Source of the DNA: Okeania sp. SIO2C9
GTDB lineage: Bacteria > Cyanobacteriota > Cyanobacteriia > Cyanobacteriales > Microcoleaceae
DNA: 64,000 bases
Assembly (NCBI RefSeq): GCF_010672455.1
Contig: NZ_JAAHGO010000002.1
Location: forward strand, 62,001 to 126,000
Reading direction: 5' to 3'
The notes under the pieces are model-generated. The model was not told where the DNA came from. It made no database searches and saw only the letters and a list, made by a program, of their open reading frames with translations. A program made the position numbers and the translations under genes. Positions 5,583 to 63,010 of the stretch are shown here, piece after piece. How positions within the stretch are numbered: position 1 is the first letter of the stretch; every line of letters begins with the position of its first letter.

Positions 5583-6683
5583 ATGCAAACATTTGGCAAT
5601 GAAGAAAGCAGCACCATGTCTACAACTAACGACAGTGGAGTTTTCTGGACACCTGTTTGGCGATCGCTAGGCTGGTATGTTGAGGCCACTGAAGAAGAAG
5701 GTGCAGCTTTATTAGGAGGCAATATCAGGTTCAAAGACCTCTCTGGGCAATTACTAGGTGCCCATGTAGCCCATGCTGGTTTAATCATGCTGTGGGCAGG
5801 TGCGATGACCCTGTTCGAGCTATCCCAGTTTGACCCCAGCGTACCAATGTACGAGCAAAAACTAATATTACTACCTCATCTAGCAACATTAGGTATTGGT
5901 ATAGGAGCAGGTGGGCAAGCGATCGACACCTATCCTTACTACGTTATCGGTATACTGCATCTCATCAGTTCTGCTGTTTTGGGAGCAGGAGGTATCTACC
6001 ATGCCGTTTTAGGGCCGAAACAGCTTGATGAGAAAGGTTTTGGCTACGACTGGGAAGATGGCAACAAGATGACTACTATTTTGGGTATTCATCTGGTGCT
6101 TTTGGGAATTGGAGCAGCACTACTGGTCATTAAAGCAACAACTTTAGGTGGTATTTATGACCCCCTAATAGAAAAGGTGCGACTGGTAGAGCCAAACCTA
6201 GATCCTGGGAGAATTTTTGGCTATCTGTTTGGCTTTAGCCCTAATGGTTGGACAATTACTGGCATGGCTAGCGTAGATAATCTCGAAGATGTAATAGGCG
6301 GTCATGTTTGGGTCAGTCTACTCTGTATTGGAGGCGGTCTGTTTCACATCGTGTCAAAGCCTACAGGTTGGGCAAAACAAATACTAATCTGGTCCGGAGA
6401 AGCTTACTTGTCTTACAGTTTAGGGGCACTTGCGATCGCAGGATTTAGCGTAGCTGTCTTTATCTCCACCAACGAAATTGTTTATCCTAGTGTGTTTTAC
6501 GGTCCTATTGGCAGCGACTCTGTGCGAGCTGCTCTTGCTACCGTTCATGCTGGGTTAGGTTTCCTAGCTTTAGTCGGACACTTATGGCACGCTTACCGAG
6601 CACGAGCAGCTACTCGTCAAGTATTTTATGGAACGTTCTTTGACTTTATGGCTAAGAATGTCACACCTATTACACCTGCATGA
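5583..6683 (+). CDS. CP43-like chlorophyll-binding antenna protein (IsiA/Pcb family)
   Basis: A six-helix chlorophyll a antenna of the IsiA/Pcb/CP43 superfamily, which rings or docks onto photosystems in the thylakoid membrane. Diagnostic segments are [65 protein letters not shown] and [14 protein letters not shown], with conserved His ligands. At 366 residues it has the usual length and lacks the large lumenal loop of PsbC. The N-terminus starts MQTFGN like IsiA but then carries an unusual insert, [20 protein letters not shown], where IsiA has WWAGN. An alternative ATG at 5616 is possible. It is the first of three paralogs in the same direction, so it is called only as an IsiA-like paralog. 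Confidence 0.93.
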
Positions 6684-7016: not shown

Positions 7017-8048
7017 ATGACTGTCGTAACTGATGAGAATGTACAAATTCCTTGGCGAGCAGGTAATGCTCGACTTGTTAACTTATCCGGCAAGCTATTG
7101 GGGGCTCATGTAGCCCATGCTGGCTTGATTGTACTATGGGCTGGAGCTATTACTTTGTTTGAAGTTGCCAACTTTGAACCCTCCCTACCTATGTACGAGC
7201 AGGGGTTAATTGTACTACCTAATCTAGCACGCTTAGGATTTGGAGTTGGTGAAGGAGGTGTCGTTGTGGATACCTACCCCTACTTCGTGATTGGGGTACT
7301 ACATTTGATTAGTTCGGCGTTTTTAGGAGCAGGTGGTATATTCCATGCTCTCAGAGGCCCTGCCAAGTTAGAGGGTAAATTTTCCTTCTTTGGCTATAGC
7401 TGGGATAATCCAGGTAAAATGACAACTATCCTGGGTATACATCTAGTATTGTTAGGAATCGGAGCCTTCTTACTTGTGGCAAAGGCGATGGCGTTTGGTG
7501 GATTATACGATCCAGTAATTCAGAATGTACGAGTAATTTCAAATCCTACTCTGAATCCCAGTACCATTTTCGGCTACCTATTCGGAACAGAAGGACGTTT
7601 CTGGCTTGCTGGTGTCAACTCTTTAGAAGATGTAGTAGGCGGTCACATTTGGATTGGTGCTATCTGCATTCTAGGTGGTCTCTGGCATATTAGCACCGTA
7701 CCCTTTGACTGGGCTAAAGGCTTATTTGTCTGGTCAGGAGAAGCATATTTGTCTTACAGTATTGGCGCAGTCAGCTTAATGGCATTTGTAGCAACATTGT
7801 TTGTGTCTGTTAACTCCCTGGTATTTCCCACAGAATTTTTCGGACCAACTTTGACTCTGGTATTCGATCGCTTTCCTGTATTCGTTAGTACTGATGGAGC
7901 TTTGACTGCAAGAGTATGGTTAGCTAATGCTCACTTCTGGTTAGGATTTTTCTTCCTGCAAGGACACCTATTCCACGCTCTACGCGCAGCAGGTTATAGC
8001 TTTACCGAAGGCAGAGTAGTCACATTTACAAGAGGTCAAGTAAGCTAG
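7017..8048 (+). CDS. CP43-like chlorophyll-binding antenna protein (Pcb/IsiA family)
   Basis: Second antenna paralog, 343 residues. The N-terminus [20 protein letters not shown] resembles the IsiA/Pcb W-AGN start. Conserved blocks are [70 protein letters not shown] and [14 protein letters not shown] good ribosome site (AAGGAG) lies 10 bases before the ATG. The last lumenal loop differs from its neighbours ([20 protein letters not shown]). It probably binds chlorophyll a and associates with a photosystem. The neighbouring PsaL fusion points to PSI, but this is inference. Confidence 0.93.
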
Positions 8049-8165: not shown

Positions 8166-9731
8166 ATGACTGTAACTAAATCAAATCCATTAAGGTTTTT
8201 AGGCTTTTCCACAGATAATAATGTTGATGTTGCGAACTATGTTAGTGATTCCCAAGAACCCTATTCTTGGTGGGCAGGTAATTTTCGCTTTGTTGACCTA
8301 TCTGGAAAGTTATTGGGAGCGCACATTGCTCATGCAGGGTTGATTGTACTCTGGGCTGGAGCAATGACTCTGTTTGAGCTATCAAAATTCGACCCTAGCC
8401 TTCCCATGTACGACCAAGGGCTGATTTTGCTGCCCCACATGGCGACTCTGGGTATAGGGGTTGGAGCAAATGGTGAAATTCTTGATACTTATCCCTACTT
8501 TGCCATTGGTGTTATCCATCTCGTTAGTTCAGCAATTCTAGGCGCTGGTGGCATTTTCCATGCCGTGCTTGGACCTGACAAACTTGATGAAAAGGGATTT
8601 GGCTATCAGTGGCATGATGGCAAAAAAATGACTACTATCCTTGGTATTCATCTACTTCTACTAGGGATGGGAGCATTTTTGCTAGTAGCCAAAGCTATGT
8701 ATTTTGATGGTTTGTATGACCCGGCGATCGCCAATGTGCGACTGATTACTGAACCCACTCTCAACCCCCAGACTATCTTCGGTTACCTCGTCGGTATCAC
8801 CCCTGATGGCTGGACGTTGAAGGGTATGGCTGCTGTCAACTCTTTAGAAGATGTGATAGGCGGTCACATTTGGATTGGTAGTATCTGTATTCTGGGTGGT
8901 ATCTGGCATATAACTACTGCCCCTACAAAATGGGCTAAGGGTCTGTTTGTCTGGTCGGGAGAGGCATATCTTGCCTATAGTCAGGCAGCTCTGGCTTACA
9001 TGGGCTTTTTCGCTGCCTACTTTGTCTGGGTGAATGATACAGTTTATCCCTCAGCATTTTATGGTCCTGTAGGTGTTACCAATGTTGATGGTATAATTAC
9101 TCCTCGCACCTGGTTGATGTTGTTCCAAATCATTTTTGCCTGTCTGCTACTGGCAGGTCACTTTTGGCATGGTCTCAGAGCTAGAGCGATCGCCAGTGGA
9201 TTTGTTTTCAGCAATATGAAGTTCAATCCCGGTGCCCTGTATGGAGATACTCAGTTTAATAACGAATCTCTAGTTACAGGTATTGTACAGCCTTTCAAAA
9301 ACGATCCCCAGTTGGGTAATTTGGCAACCCCAATTAATTCCAGTCAGCTTACCATCACTTGGGTTAAGAACTTACCCATTTATCGGAATGGTTTATCCCC
9401 TATTGCACGGGGTCTGGAAATTGGCATGGCTCACGGATACCTATTATTAGGGCCTTTTCTCAAACTCGGACCATTGCGTAACACCGACCAAGCTCTTCTG
9501 GCTGGAGGTGGTAGTGCATCTGCCTTGGTAGTGATTTTAAGTATCTGTCTGTTTGTTTATGGGGCGGTAGTGTTTCAAGGTTCTGGTAAACCAAGAGGCG
9601 TTTTGCCGGAGAACCTGCAAACTTATCAGCAATGGAGTCTGTTTACCTCTGGTTTTCTCATTGGAGGAATAGGCGGTGTGATTTTTGCCTGTTTTATCCT
9701 GATAGAAATCGGGCGATCGGGAATTTTGTAA
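8166..9731 (+). CDS. CP43-like antenna fused to a PsaL domain
   Basis: Residues about 30-345 are an IsiA/Pcb-type antenna ([57 protein letters not shown]). Residues about 365-521 are a full-length PsaL-like domain ([39 protein letters not shown] and two C-terminal hydrophobic helices). PsaL is the PSI subunit at the trimerisation face. Antenna-PsaL fusions are known in several cyanobacteria (the CBPV-type class, as I recall the nomenclature) and should anchor antenna directly in PSI. It begins 117 bases after the previous antenna gene. Confidence 0.95.
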
Positions 9732-26814: not shown

Positions 26815-26988
26815 CTGTTGTTTGAAAATAACCTGACAACCCTTAAATAAAGTCTCTTCAATTCTTCAAGGTTAGTACATGGCGATCGCTCAACTCTTAC
26901 TATTAATCTCTTAATTTATCGGGTGTAATATAATTATACCAAGCGTTAAAAAAGAATGCTATATTTAACAGACACTTCAATTATTAAC

Positions 26989-27310
26989 AGGACTTACGCA
27001 TTTTTCCAACAAAAACACTATATATCAAAGTATTGATACATAAAGGTTTGAGCATTTTGAGGATCGAATTGCAGTGCGCCTGTTTCAGTTGAAAACGCTC
27101 AAAAAGCTAGTATTTTGGGCTGACTATGGCAGAAAAATCCCAAATTGACAAAACGCCCGCTCCTACCTCCTCGCTCATTCCCCGTTCCTCCTGTCTTCCC
27201 CTCCTGGGAGGGGCAGGGAGGGGTGGGTTGTCTCCTGTCTTCCCCTCCTGGGAGGGGGAGGGGCGAGGGGTGGGTTGTCTCCTACCCCTAACCCCTACTA
27301 AAAGACTTAT
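26989..27310 (+). repeat. Family A repeat, copy 4, with an AGGACTTACGCA end
   Basis: It begins with a lone AGGACTTACGCA end (26989-27000), then a family A copy (TCGAATTGCAGTGCGCC, GCTGACTATGGCAGAAAAATCC). Two CCCCTCCTGGGAGGGG palindromes follow, with a final CCCCTACTAAAAGACTTATA. The 26815-26988 stretch is AT-rich, has one HIP1 site and no gene. Confidence 0.6.
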
Positions 27311-32482: not shown

Positions 32483-32572
32483 AATAACAATAGTTTGATT
32501 GACGTAATTTTTACTTATGTATTATTCCAACAAATTATGAGTACAAAACTTATGCAAATTGACCTTGAAAAC

Positions 32573-32888
32573 ACCATCTGTAGGGGCGAATGGTATTCGC
32601 CCTCCCTACAAGAGTTTTGATTTTGATTATGTGGTTAACTCATTTGAAACCACCATCTGTAGGGGCGAATGGTATTCCCCCTCCCTACAAGAGTTTTGAT
32701 TTTGATTATGTGGTTAACTCATTTGAAACCACCATCTGTAGGGGCGAATGGTATTCGCCCTCCCTACAAGAGTTTTGATTTTGATTATGTGCTTAACTCA
32801 TTTGAAACCACCATCTGTAGGGGCAAATGGTATTCGCCCTCCCTACAAAGGTTTTTGATTTTGATTATGTGGTTAACTCATCTGATAC
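32573..32888. repeat. 79-bp tandem repeat, four copies
   Basis: Units start ACCATCTGTAGGGGCGAATG at 32573, 32652, 32731 and 32810. Each carries the palindrome GGGCGAATGGTATTCGCCC and then AGTTTTGATTTTGATTATGTGG. Identity is high with scattered single changes. A related single palindrome follows at 32962-32987. It fills the gap between the kinase start and tldD. It is not CRISPR-like, because there are no variable spacers. Confidence 0.9.
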
Positions 32889-44557: not shown

Positions 44558-44998
44558 CTACTTATATTCATTGTTAATTTTTGAATAACTAGGAAAACTC
44601 AATAACCATCTCCTCATTTCATCAGATAATTTTTGCCTACTTCTACTTTGAGGATGAATACAAACGTGCTTCGTAATAGCTCTGGCCACCCACTTATTCT
44701 CTGTTTCTTTTAAAAAGACTTTATAGGAAATTTCAAACTCATCATCCCCCCAACTGTTAGGAATTAATTCAATAGTTAACTCATCTCCACAAAACATCGG
44801 GCGACGGAAATCAACATTAGCATGAATAATCGGAATAGCCATTTCTTGATTACTAAAAAAGACTTTCAGATTAATACCAAATTCTCCTAAAGATGCTTCA
44901 TAAGCTTCATGGCACATTGCTAAAACATTAGCAAAATAAACCACTCCAGCAGCATCGGTATCTTGAAAATGAACTATTCTTGTATAGTAAAAAGACAT
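44558..44998 (-). CDS. Hotdog-fold thioesterase, probable 1,4-dihydroxy-2-naphthoyl-CoA hydrolase
   Basis: 146 residues. FQDTDAAGVVYFANVLAMCH carries the catalytic Asp of the 4HBT family, and the protein resembles cyanobacterial DHNA-CoA thioesterases (Slr0204-type). That enzyme releases 1,4-dihydroxy-2-naphthoate for phylloquinone, the PSI quinone. Other features are HANVDFRRPMFCGDELTIEL and HVCIHP. No other men gene is adjacent. A general acyl-CoA thioesterase role cannot be excluded. Confidence 0.82.
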   Translation of the reverse strand: MSFYYTRIVHFQDTDAAGVVYFANVLAMCHEAYEASLGEFGINLKVFFSNQEMAIPIIHANVDFRRPMFCGDELTIELIPNSWGDDEFEISYKVFLKETENKWVARAITKHVCIHPQSRSRQKLSDEMRRWLLSFPSYSKINNEYK

Positions 44999-45129: not shown

Positions 45130-46366
45130 CAACCTGCCATCTACCACTTAAGGAAGGATAAGGACAATAAATCATATATTCAGGAATTAGGGATTTTTGA
45201 GTTCTAAATGCTACATATCTGTAACGTTATAGTTTTTGTTTCCTATATATAGTGTCTTTACCTAAATATCGATCGCCTAACACCTACCACTAAAGCAAAG
45301 GTAGGGATAATAAATCATATATTTAATAATTAGGGATTTTTAAGTTCTAAACACTACATATCTATAACGTTATAGTTTTTGTTCTCTATATATAGTTTCT
45401 TTACCTAAATAGAGTAGGAACAATTAATCATAATATTCAGGAATTAGGGATTTTTAAGTTCTAAACGCTACATATCTGTAACGTTATAGTTTTTGCTCTA
45501 TATATATAGTGTCTTTACCTAAATATCGATCGCCTAACACCTACCACTAAAGCAAAGGTAGGGATAATAAATCATATATTTAATAATTAGGGATTTTTAA
45601 GTTCTAAACGCTACATATCTGTAACGTTATAGTTTTTGCTCTATATATATAGTGTCTTTACCTAAATATCGATCGCTTAACACCTACCACTAAAGCAAAG
45701 GTAGGGATAATAAATCATATATTTAATAATTAGGGATTTTTGAGTTCTAAACACTACAGATATGTAACGTTATAGTTTTTGTTCAGTATATATAGTGTAC
45801 TTACCTAAATTTTGATAATCTAACACCTACCACTCAAGGAAGGGTAGAGAGTATAAATCATATATTTAATAATTAGGGATTTTTGAGTTCTAAACACTAC
45901 AGATATGTAACGTTATAGTTTTTGTTCAGTATATATAGTGTACTTACCTAAATTTTGATAATCTAACACCTACCACTCAAGGAAGGGTAGAGAGTATAAA
46001 TCATATATTTAATAATTAGGGATTTTTGATTTCTAAACACTACAGATATGTAACGTTATAGTTTTTGCTCACTATATATAGTGTACTTACCTAAATTTTG
46101 ATAATCTAACACCTACCACTCAAGGAAGGGTAGAGAGTATAAATCATATATTTAATAATTAGGGATTTTTGAGTTCTAAACACTACAGATATGTAACGTT
46201 ATAGTTTTTGTTCAGTATATATAGTGTACTTACCTAAATTTTGATAATCTAACACCTGCCACTCAAGGAAGGGTAGAGAGTATAAATCATATATTTAATA
46301 ATTAGGGATTTTTGAATTCTAGAGACTACATATCTGTAACGTTATAGTTTTTGCTCACTATATATA
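45130..46366. repeat. Tandem array of a 143-bp unit, nine copies
   Basis: The landmark TAACGTTATAGTTTTTG occurs at 45222, 45364, 45479, 45622, 45765, 45908, 46051, 46194 and 46337. Spacing is 142, 115, then 143 six times. Each unit contains TTAGGGATTTTTGAGTTCTA, the palindrome TAACGTTA, TATATATAG and a short hairpin CTACCACTCAAGGAAGGGTAG. The right-hand copies are nearly identical. The left copies vary and one lacks 28 bases. No ORF runs through it. It occupies most of the gap between the thioesterase and TerB-like genes. Confidence 0.95.
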
Positions 46367-46534
46367 GTAGTTGAAGCAAAGGGTGCGGACATATCAAAAG
46401 CTTAAAACTCAGACAACGCAAGATTTTTCAGTCCTTCGCTCCTTCCTTCTTTCTTTTCTGAACAATGAACAATACTAAATTTGATTGTAGTAATTGTTCA
46501 TTGAACATTCATCAGAATTAATTTTGTAATTAAA

Positions 46535-46981
46535 TTAACCCTTATTTTTAATCATCATTACATCAATAATATTAGTCGCTACTGCTTCGGAAATTTCCAA
46601 AGCATTATATAACTCATTCAAAAGTTGTTCCTCCTCTTCAGCAAGGTCTCCATCTACTAAAACCAAGTCTGTACTAACAGCAAAAACTGTTTCCCTTAAC
46701 TCCTTTGGAAGTTTAGCAACTGCCGCATCAAACAAAGGCTTAATTTCTTGATTTTTAATCATACCGAGAAGACGGTCTTGCATTTCTGTCTTACGTTCCT
46801 TTGAATAATCACTAAACAGTTCCATGCGAGAGAAAATATTATTAATACCTTGAGATTCACTCTTAGTAATAACACCATCAGCAGCAACAGCAATTAAAGC
46901 GATCGCTGCAAAAGCTTCTGCCGGTTCTAATTGAATATCAGTAGCTTGTATTGTTGTTGTTCCTTGATCGAAAAGACCCAT
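46535..46981 (-). CDS. TerB-like (tellurite resistance family) protein
   Basis: 148 residues from the ATG at 46981 (MGLFDQGTTTIQAT), preceded by a GAGGT ribosome site; an upstream in-frame start would add 11 atypical residues. The TerB/DjlA-like all-helical fold shows AFAAIALIAVAADGVITKSE and DLVLVDGDLAEEEEQLLNEL, two acidic AADGxxxxxE / xDGxLxxxE repeats that bind metal in TerB. The exact role in cyanobacteria is unknown. It lies 163 bases downstream of the DUF815 ATPase on the same strand. Confidence 0.85.
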   Translation of the reverse strand: MGLFDQGTTTIQATDIQLEPAEAFAAIALIAVAADGVITKSESQGINNIFSRMELFSDYSKERKTEMQDRLLGMIKNQEIKPLFDAAVAKLPKELRETVFAVSTDLVLVDGDLAEEEEQLLNELYNALEISEAVATNIIDVMMIKNKG

Positions 46982-47143
46982 TTTAGTTACCTCATTAGTG
47001 ATTTTTTTTACCATCTCTATATTGGGAAAATATTAGGTGTTATAAAATAAGTTTTATATTTAATCTAAAACTTAAAATTCACTAATAATTAATTATTCAT
47101 TATTCATTATTCATTATTAATTATTGAACACCTACTATCTTCT

Positions 47144-52479: not shown

Positions 52480-52655
52480 TTTTTTCTTCCTTCTTCCTTC
52501 TTCCTTCTTCCTTCTTCCTTCTTCCTTCTTCCTTCTTCCTTATTCCTTATTCCTTCTTCCTTATTCCTTCTTCCTTATTCCTTATTCCTTATTCCTTATT
52601 CCTTCTTCCTTCTTCCTTCTTCCTTCTTCCTTCTTCCTTCTTACTTCTTCCTTTC
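52480..52655. repeat. CTTCCTT/ATTCCTT heptamer array
   Basis: About 25 nearly perfect 7-bp units, mostly CTTCCTT with interspersed ATTCCTT variants, ending 9 bases before the kinase stop codon. It is the longest heptamer array in the window. Confidence 0.92.
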
Positions 52656-61579: not shown

Positions 61580-62020
61580 TAAGGTATAGCAGTCGAAGGA
61601 AAGGACGCGGACTGATCGAGAAGCTCTAAAACTCAGACAACACAATATTTTGGTTGTCCTGGGGAGCGTCATTTCTGTTATCAGTTATCAGTACCTCTGC
61701 AATAAGGAGGCTTGAGATCGGGAATATTCTCTTTTTCTATCCTCTTAAAAGGGGAGACTTTAGACCAGAATTTTTCGGTAATGGTGAAGATATATATTGT
61801 TGAATTTATTCCCACACTCCCCACACTCCTTACACTCTCTCTAACCACCACCAATATTTTTTCTTCTTCCTTCTTCCTTCTTCCTTCTTACTTCTTACTT
61901 CTTCCTTCTTCCTTCTTCCTTCTTCCTTCTTCCTTCTTCCTTCTTCCTTCTTCCTTCTTCCTTCTTACTTCTTACTTCTTACTTCTTTCTTCTTCCTTCT
62001 TCCTTCTTCCTTCCTCCTTC
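61580..62020. repeat. TATAGCAG end, hairpin repeat and CTTCCTT heptamer array
   Basis: TATAGCAGTCGAAGGAAAGG at 61585. A CCTCTTAAAAGGGGAGACTTT hairpin lies near 61741. A long CTTCCTT/CTTACTT array occupies about 61861-62020, ending at the stop codon of the OmpA-like gene. Confidence 0.75.
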
Positions 62021-63010
62021 TTAATTAGCGGGTGTCAAAATAATTACTGTTCGCTGGTTGACATCAGCAGCAGGGTCGGTACCAGGGAGTGGTTGAGAAA
62101 ATCCCATTCCTTTGCCAACAACCTGATATGGTAAATTCTGCTGTTTCAAATATTCGACTACTGCATTTGCTCGGTCTTGAGATATTTCTTGATTTAACTG
62201 AGCACCACCGACCTGAGATGTATGACCTTCAACTCTAATCGTAACTTTATTCGGATCGTATTCTTTAATTTCTGAGATGAGACTATTTATAGTTTGCTCT
62301 GCTTGGGGAGATAATTCAAATTCATCAAATCCAAATTTGACTTGACCTAAAGTTTTGTTTTGACTCAAGTTCTTGCCTTGTGGTTTAGATGTTGTAGATG
62401 TGTTAGTAGTAGCAGCAGAAGTTTCAATTTCGGGGGATGATGTAGCAGTTGGTTGTGTAGTTTCGACTCCAGAGGTAGCAGTAATATTAGTAGTAGGTGA
62501 TACGGTCGCGGATGGAGAAGTAGATACTGAGCTAGTAGTTGTTTCAGTGTCTGTGGTTTCTGTAGTTGTAGTAAAAGACTCTGTTTGAGTTGTTGTTGTA
62601 TCAGTTGTAATAGGAGTGGGAGACTCTGCTTGAGTAGTTGTTTCAGTGTCTGTGGTTTCTGTAGTTGTAGTAAAAGACTCTGTTTGAGTTGTTGTTGTAT
62701 CAGTTGTAATGGGAGTGGGAGACTCTGCTGTAGTAGTTGTTTCAGCTTCTGTGGTTTCTGTAGTTGTAGTAAAAGACTCTGCTTCAGTAGTTGTTGTATC
62801 AGTTGTTTCAGTTTCTGTTGTTTGTACTTGAGTAACTTCTGTTTGATCGTCTACATCTTCAGTTTCAGGTAATTGAACTTCAATAATAGGTTTTTCAAAA
62901 GCTTTAGGAGCTGCAAATGCCCAAGCACAAATCATCATAAAGCCCATACATCCTGCTAAGATAGTAGGGTGTACAGTTTGTTGTTTATCTATTTTTTTTT
63001 CAGTAGTCAT
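62021..63010 (-). CDS. OmpA-like peptidoglycan-binding protein with Thr/Glu-rich repeat stalk
   Basis: 329 residues. One N-terminal hydrophobic segment (ILAGCMGFMMICAWAFAA), then a long Thr/Glu/Ser stalk (about 50-215) with repeated TTTTQTESFTTTTETTDTET units, and a C-terminal OmpA domain at about 222-329 (VTIRVEGHTSQVGGAQLNQE, ISQDRANAVVEYLKQ). The domain binds diaminopimelate of peptidoglycan. The stalk DNA is a 99-bp direct repeat (62572 and 62671, with a degenerate third near 62770). It is probably a wall-spanning anchor. Confidence 0.88.
   Translation of the reverse strand: MTTEKKIDKQQTVHPTILAGCMGFMMICAWAFAAPKAFEKPIIEVQLPETEDVDDQTEVTQVQTTETETTDTTTTEAESFTTTTETTEAETTTTAESPTPITTDTTTTQTESFTTTTETTDTETTTQAESPTPITTDTTTTQTESFTTTTETTDTETTTSSVSTSPSATVSPTTNITATSGVETTQPTATSSPEIETSAATTNTSTTSKPQGKNLSQNKTLGQVKFGFDEFELSPQAEQTINSLISEIKEYDPNKVTIRVEGHTSQVGGAQLNQEISQDRANAVVEYLKQQNLPYQVVGKGMGFSQPLPGTDPAADVNQRTVIILTPAN

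Follow-up and report, generated by a model that had tools for sequence, protein, structure and literature searches.

Tandem arrays of MITE-related units in Okeania and a palindrome that may be kept as a clustered protein-binding site

Tandem units that each possess an inverted-repeat site for a binding protein are found in centromere arrays of the sopC/parS type and in iterons. The arrays considered here differ from these systems in being approximately ten in number and dispersed over the chromosome, in their differing unit lengths, and in having a partner protein that is putative. Tandem reiteration together with flanking DNA has also been described for clusters of REP elements, which are defined as stem-loops of 20-40 bp with a GTAG/CGTC tag and a RAYT gene (PMC3733652). 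Compared to such REP/BIME structures, the ends of the present element match an IS701-family DDE element, no GTAG/CGTC-tagged GC-rich stem-loop was seen in the unit by eye, and what is conserved is an AT-rich symmetric sequence with an RACGTY centre. Many loci of Porphyromonas gingivalis combine the MITE BrickBuilt with a minisatellite (PMC4596501); its 23-nt repeats lie inside the MITE, whereas here the repeat unit is a whole MITE plus outside DNA and its period is locus-specific. MITEs can also bear binding sites, such as IHF sites (PMC10969869). A further likeness is to NsiR1 of Nostoc, likewise a filamentous cyanobacterium, in which 12 copies of an sRNA gene form tandem direct repeats upstream of a gene, the central copies being identical and the outer ones diverged (PMC9045159). 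Unlike NsiR1 as presented there, the array described below yielded no promoter, sRNA-structure or DIF evidence, and approximately 12 loci share only the MITE centre or the palindrome. Searches of the open-licence literature by exact sequence strings and by topic found no description of this repeat.

The window, i.e., the whole stretch of 64,000 nucleotides that was analysed, comprises C112:62001-126000 of a 10.88-Mb, 317-contig assembly of Okeania sp. SIO2C9. Nine tandem units, each composed of a MITE and local spacer DNA, occupy positions 45130..46368 on the plus strand, as judged from TRF output, anchor positions, and unit identities. The anchor AACGTTATAGTTTT occurs nine times (45223, 45366, 45480, 45623, 45766, 45909, 46052, 46195, and 46338), with intervals of 143, 114, and then six times 143 bp (seven of eight are 143 bp); part of the inter-MITE spacer is missing from the 114-bp interval. 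A nine-copy array holding a 143-bp period for six intervals, which had been proposed from the sequence alone (the original prediction), is confirmed by these anchors and by TRF, which gave a score of 1499, 6.6 copies, and 95% matches for the main block. The predicted palindrome and box are likewise real features, as TAACGTTA is present in 9/9 units and a TATATATAG-type box in each. Near-identity of the right-hand copies was found for units 5-8 (97-99% pairwise identity) but does not extend to unit 9 at the right edge, whose right side is truncated and which shows 57-70% identity over the 143-bp frame; identity among units 1-4, and between these and units 5-8, is 71-92%. A complete unit consists of a degenerate MITE of approximately 90 bp and approximately 50 bp of local DNA (Table 1). 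A CRISPR array was considered and rejected, since the spacers are part of what is repeated, units 5-8 being near-identical over their full length.

Table 1. Coordinates of the array units, neighbouring genes, and a solitary MITE fragment in the window
Feature	Position	Strand	Details
Unit 1, most complete MITE copy	45181..45272	+	Left end CAGGAATTAGGGATTTTT; right inner end CTTTACCTAAAT at 45267; outer right end (~45272) set by analogy with solitary copies
Unit 1, palindromic core ATATCTGTAACGTTATAGTTTT	45215..45236	+	
Unit 2, MITE (inner ends)	45324..45410	+	Palindrome 45358-45379
Unit 3, MITE, after the 114-bp interval	45438..45524	+	Palindrome 45472-45493
Unit 4, MITE	45581..45667	+	Palindrome 45615-45636
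Unit 5, MITE, first of four near-identical units	45724..45810	+	Palindrome 45758-45779
Unit 6, MITE	45867..45953	+	Palindrome 45901-45922
Unit 7, MITE	46010..46096	+	Palindrome 46044-46065
Unit 8, MITE	46153..46239	+	Palindrome 46187-46208
Unit 9, right MITE arm ends after CTATATATAGT; right edge of array	46296..46368	+	Palindrome 46330-46351
4HBT_2 acyl-CoA thioesterase-like protein gene	44558..44998	-	Pfam PF13279, 1.3e-18; ORF
TerB-domain gene, opposite side of array	46535..47014	-	Pfam PF05099, 1.4e-6; ORF
Solitary-MITE fragment, 38 bp (consensus positions 1-38)	26988..27025	+	97% identity; G000:C112:88988-89025

No ORF of at least 60 aa overlaps the array, which bears out the predicted lack of coding potential, and its G+C content is 28.6%, compared to 36.7% for the window. 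Since both flanking genes are on the minus strand, the array lies in the upstream region of the 4HBT_2 thioesterase gene. Minisatellites are abundant in the window, accounting for 49 TRF rows in 64 kb; among them are a tandem array at 32565-32885 (period 79 bp, 4.1 copies) with a GGGCGAATGGTATTCGCCC palindrome, heptamer tracts at 52484-52653 (TTCTTCC)24 and 61863-62022 (CTTCTTC)23, and many shorter heptamer repeats throughout. In addition, three matches to IsrR (isiA antisense RNA) were found on the minus strand (6051-6225, 7401-7578, and 8610-8787) at a spacing of about 1.2-1.35 kb, which suggests tandem isiA-like genes with one antisense RNA each. A tRNA scan detected none in the window.

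The origin of the unit could be traced by genome searches. With one unit as the query, 47 matches were obtained in the genome, many of them outside the window and covering no more than the middle of the unit. Solitary full copies represent an element of approximately 92 bp with terminal inverted repeats (TIRs) CAGGACTTACGCA, situated at distinct loci with unrelated flanks, and this element has 56 genome matches (E <= 0.001), both in arrays and alone. Local alignment of window unit 1 to positions 1-86 of the 92-bp MITE consensus gave a score of 45, whereas the best of 1000 shuffles scored 29. The end sequence of the solitary MITE also bounds an IS of approximately 1.5 kb at locus L120, which has the TIR CAGGACTTACGCAAAGACACTATATATAGTGT and an intact 332-aa transposase with a score of 374 bits against NCBIfam NF049921 (transpos_IS701_2, cutoff 250); in an IS with the same end sequence at L121, the transposase is split into three short ORFs. 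The element is thus short and non-coding, has TIRs, is present in dispersed copies with unrelated flanks, and shares its ends with an autonomous IS, all of which are features of a MITE. Judged on its sequence, the array unit is such an IS701-related MITE plus flank, a composition that the original prediction missed together with the many sister arrays described below. TTAA(T)-like direct flanks were seen by eye at L120 and at the site shared by L126 and G243, but not at others (L125). The solitary MITE of L126 is also present in G243, while G244-G246 are rearranged there, the relatives without the copy differing over a longer stretch; queries with the L126 and L125 loci gave no clean empty site in relatives. 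In G153, which belongs to another genus of the family (g5), two copies form near-perfect palindromes centred on AAAACTATAACGTTATAGTTTT. A viral origin was rejected, as the pattern AAAACTNNNACGTTATAGTTTT had 0 matches in viral contigs.

Orthologous loci were located by means of the thioesterase protein, whose closest relatives are from Okeania. The array, with at least three copies each, is present at 4 of 13 other orthologous loci: Okeania hirsuta has six copies, SIO1I7 has five, SIO3B5 has three with the contig ending there, and SIO2B3 has four exact cores with a TRF period of 141 bp, in an intergenic region that exceeds the scanned length of 2.2 kb. No array was detected within 2.2 kb at the other nine loci (two Okeania, five Trichodesmium, Hydrocoleum, and a Microcoleaceae MAG). 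The array-positive loci belong to the nearest relatives, with a thioesterase identity of 90-96%, compared to 89% or less for the negative ones. Absence from close relatives, which had been named beforehand as part of the outcome that would point to neutral satellite DNA, was therefore not observed. The suggestion that the array grew from one side holds in part: units 5-8 represent a recent expansion within the array, and the interval pattern is the same in O. hirsuta (143-114-143-143-143).

A search for the unit elsewhere in this and related genomes, which had been proposed as a check, gave matches in this genome, sister arrays, and the array in close relatives. The 13-mer ACGTTATAGTTTT has 85 sites in the genome, compared to 3 for the control; 71 of the 85 are in 11 tandem arrays (on C1, C24, C40, C90, C101, C248, C270, and C289, and three on C112) and 14 are elsewhere. 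The periods of these arrays differ, ranging from about 65 to 170 bp, and 6 of the 11 have only the surrounding palindrome in common (approximately A-CT--RACGTY--AG-T). All five genomes of the genus Okeania (g1) have 58-85 sites each (controls, 1-6), and several arrays recur across species at similar periods, such as 76, 92, 125, 128, 134, and 169 bp. Across the family, ACGTTATAGTTTT is found in 16 of 61 genomes, namely 5/5 of g1, 7/7 of g5 (4-170 sites), one g114 genome (9 sites), and three others with single matches; any role must be lineage-specific, since the site is absent from the remaining 45. For G279 and G281, 30 loci were taken from 170 + 158 matches. The array neighbours, named by eye from translations, are varied and without a theme (thrS, tyrS/pyrF, accC, dnaX, and a transporter-like gene). 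Palindromic solitary sites adjoining conserved genes are also varied, several lying within coding sequence, which is consistent with chance singles. Beside arrays of the C270 type in several Okeania, a 69-bp tandem repeat was noted (L132 2330-2501, L244 1536-2001, L246 1957-2401, L253 188-615, L255 2611-2969, and L260 1-354); it is probably coding, as the neighbouring ORF in G000 reads like a leucine-rich-repeat protein.

With respect to the palindrome itself, the pattern AAAACTNNNACGTNNNAGTTTT with at most 2 mismatches gave 111 sites per strand, compared to 15 for the reversed control. Clustering of the arms of 278 sites, i.e., those on the loci examined (a part of all genome sites) that remained after sites less than 75 bp from a locus end were dropped, separated MITE-type arms from about eight array families with other arms. 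By a rough estimate, in which repeat units of at least 40 bp make up approximately 1% of the window and the control rate is 3 per genome, approximately 0.03 arrays with the 13-mer would be expected by chance, compared to 6 observed in this genome without recognisable MITE arms. As only one half of the palindrome was used in the search, the other half is informative: among 59 arm-pair classes, A3 is kept in 56, C5 in 51, T6 in 58, and a purine at position 9 in 58, while pairs 2, 4, and 8 (the last being 8-15) are complementary in 31, 33, and 21, respectively. Such a base pattern is better explained by recognition of a symmetric sequence (approximately A-CT--RACGTY--AG-T) than by an RNA hairpin held by base pairing.

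The latter point bears on the possibility that the arrays consist of small-RNA genes in tandem, every unit having a promoter of its own as in NsiR1 and the conserved TATAGT as the -10 box. In a promoter scan, five units gave TAAACA-17-TATAGT and the last unit gave TAGAGA-17-TATAGT, and the NsiR1 array offers a cyanobacterial precedent. However, the number of promoter-like sites (13) is close to that in shuffled sequences (9.6 +/- 3.0), zero terminators were predicted, and conservation of the upstream hexamer does not extend across array families; GTTGTAGTTTT, a version that lacks the A of the -10 box but has the palindrome, is found in many C270 units and in three C112:213k units. RNA folding of the unit is no better than that of shuffles on either strand (z 0.64 and 0.74), an Rfam scan gave no match in the array, with only the three distant IsrR matches in the window, and the DIF-type motif TCCGGA is absent from the array. 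We consider tandem sRNA genes improbable on this evidence. The structured RNA array offered in the original prediction finds no support in the same folding, Rfam, terminator, and promoter results or in the 8-15 pairing counts; its short hairpin stands as a DNA symmetry, but as RNA the unit shows no excess folding.

A distinct question is whether the palindrome outlasts its surroundings. Pooled over species, with matches of less than 0.55 of the unit and overlapping matches dropped, the 13-mer is among the best-conserved unit windows in 9/9 multi-locus families (window percentiles 0.986, 0.981, 0.992, 0.941, 0.980, 0.944, 0.833, 0.977, and 0.789); two single-locus families gave 0.500 and 0.740. 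For single arrays, where the cutoff was 0.5, the mean core percentile is 0.72 (42 arrays), with some very low values (0.02, 0.09, 0.13, and 0.17). Gathering arrays by the exact 13-mer favours intact cores, a bias from which a palindrome-masked, protein-anchored test is free. In that test, at the orthologous locus of five species, an exact 13-mer followed 24 of 25 left-arm matches, the 25th being a second partial match within a unit already counted. Given a conservation of 0.905 outside the palindrome, approximately 0.27 per unit would be expected if columns were independent, although the 24 units are related by descent and are not independent observations. For control arrays built from a related MITE that lacks the palindrome, the percentiles of the centre are 0.66, 0.77, 0.99, and 0.69, which indicates that core conservation is not unique to the AACGTT palindrome and that part of it may be a general property of such MITE centres. 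In the unrelated control array at 32565 of the window, the palindrome is not the best-kept part (percentile 0.09). Taken together, a symmetric sequence conserved above its surroundings is common to otherwise unrelated arrays. This gives indirect support to the protein-binding array, another of the three readings originally offered (the third being a structural chromosomal element), which as a set were partly supported; the binder itself is putative.

The strongest alternative is amplification that is neutral or self-driven, in which palindromic MITEs would stall replication or slip and the surroundings be reduplicated without use, the core seeming conserved because intact hairpins are the ones duplicated (drive) or because the arrays are young. 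We regard this as a serious possibility, although one we are inclined to doubt. Tandem copies are likewise seen of the related MITE that lacks the AACGTT centre, at several loci such as C18, C245, C6, and C223 and in other species, so the palindrome is not needed for amplification. Copy number differs between species, the boundaries of ten arrays examined lie at varying distances from the core, and other minisatellites abound in the window. A pure hairpin model, however, leaves unexplained why one specific sequence recurs in arrays with unrelated arms, and does not account for the frequent non-complementarity at pairs 2, 4, and 8 while A3, C5, T6, and R9 are kept, nor for a core that outlasts the arms across species. 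Tandem copies of the related MITE with flanks were noted at L124 902-1622, L138 968-1676, G000:C6:18799-19342, G246:C645:28643-30149, and G245:C24:141252-142574.

Array boundaries also bear on a reading in which the palindrome is a site-specific recombination site, at which a recombinase captures and amplifies units in the manner of a cassette array. Different arms are indeed joined at the same core, for example, in L233, where a left arm of MITE type meets a right arm that recurs in L263 and L270, and in three arrays (L025, L128, and L132) one edge coincides or almost coincides with the core. Nevertheless, for most of the ten arrays the edges lie away from the core, with homology of, e.g., 83/12, 61/63, 51/36, and 95/224 bp beyond the outer cores, and no recombinase gene was recognised by eye beside the inspected arrays. 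We consider this reading very improbable; it and the RNA-array reading are weaker than neutral amplification.

The explanation we favour, at about even confidence and on sequence comparisons, is that of MITE-seeded tandem arrays in which the palindrome is kept as a putative clustered protein-binding site. An IS701-related MITE would have inserted upstream of the thioesterase gene in the ancestor of part of Okeania, after which the MITE and approximately 50 bp of adjoining DNA would have been tandemly duplicated, with replication slippage at the hairpin-forming element, or unequal exchange there, as the probable mechanism. Copy number would have kept changing, leading to nine units here and six in O. 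hirsuta, and the same process may have been repeated at no fewer than ten further sites of the genome. MITE arms and spacers would then drift while the central palindrome is preserved, such that old arrays retain little else; arrays with only the core in common would presumably have started from a MITE as well. The most likely reason for the kept core would be a dimeric DNA-binding protein for which clustering matters, such as in titration or in an anchoring cluster, with a possible benefit to the host.

Should the palindrome prove to be a binding site, a mobile element would have founded a system of clustered DNA sites and distributed it within a bacterial genus, and the arrays would provide a direct handle for isolating the protein. 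If the arrays are neutral, they would still represent a clear bacterial case of MITEs becoming dispersed satellite arrays, in which related genomes display next to each other what look like the steps of the process, namely solitary MITE, young array, and centre-only array. A broader proposition, which we think rather unlikely, is that Okeania and its relatives possess one 18-22 bp palindrome in approximately ten clustered arrays, which MITEs would have founded, which would be kept genus-wide, and which would bind a lineage-specific protein. Such a network might serve, for instance, chromosome organisation or regulator titration in multi-megabase filamentous cyanobacteria.
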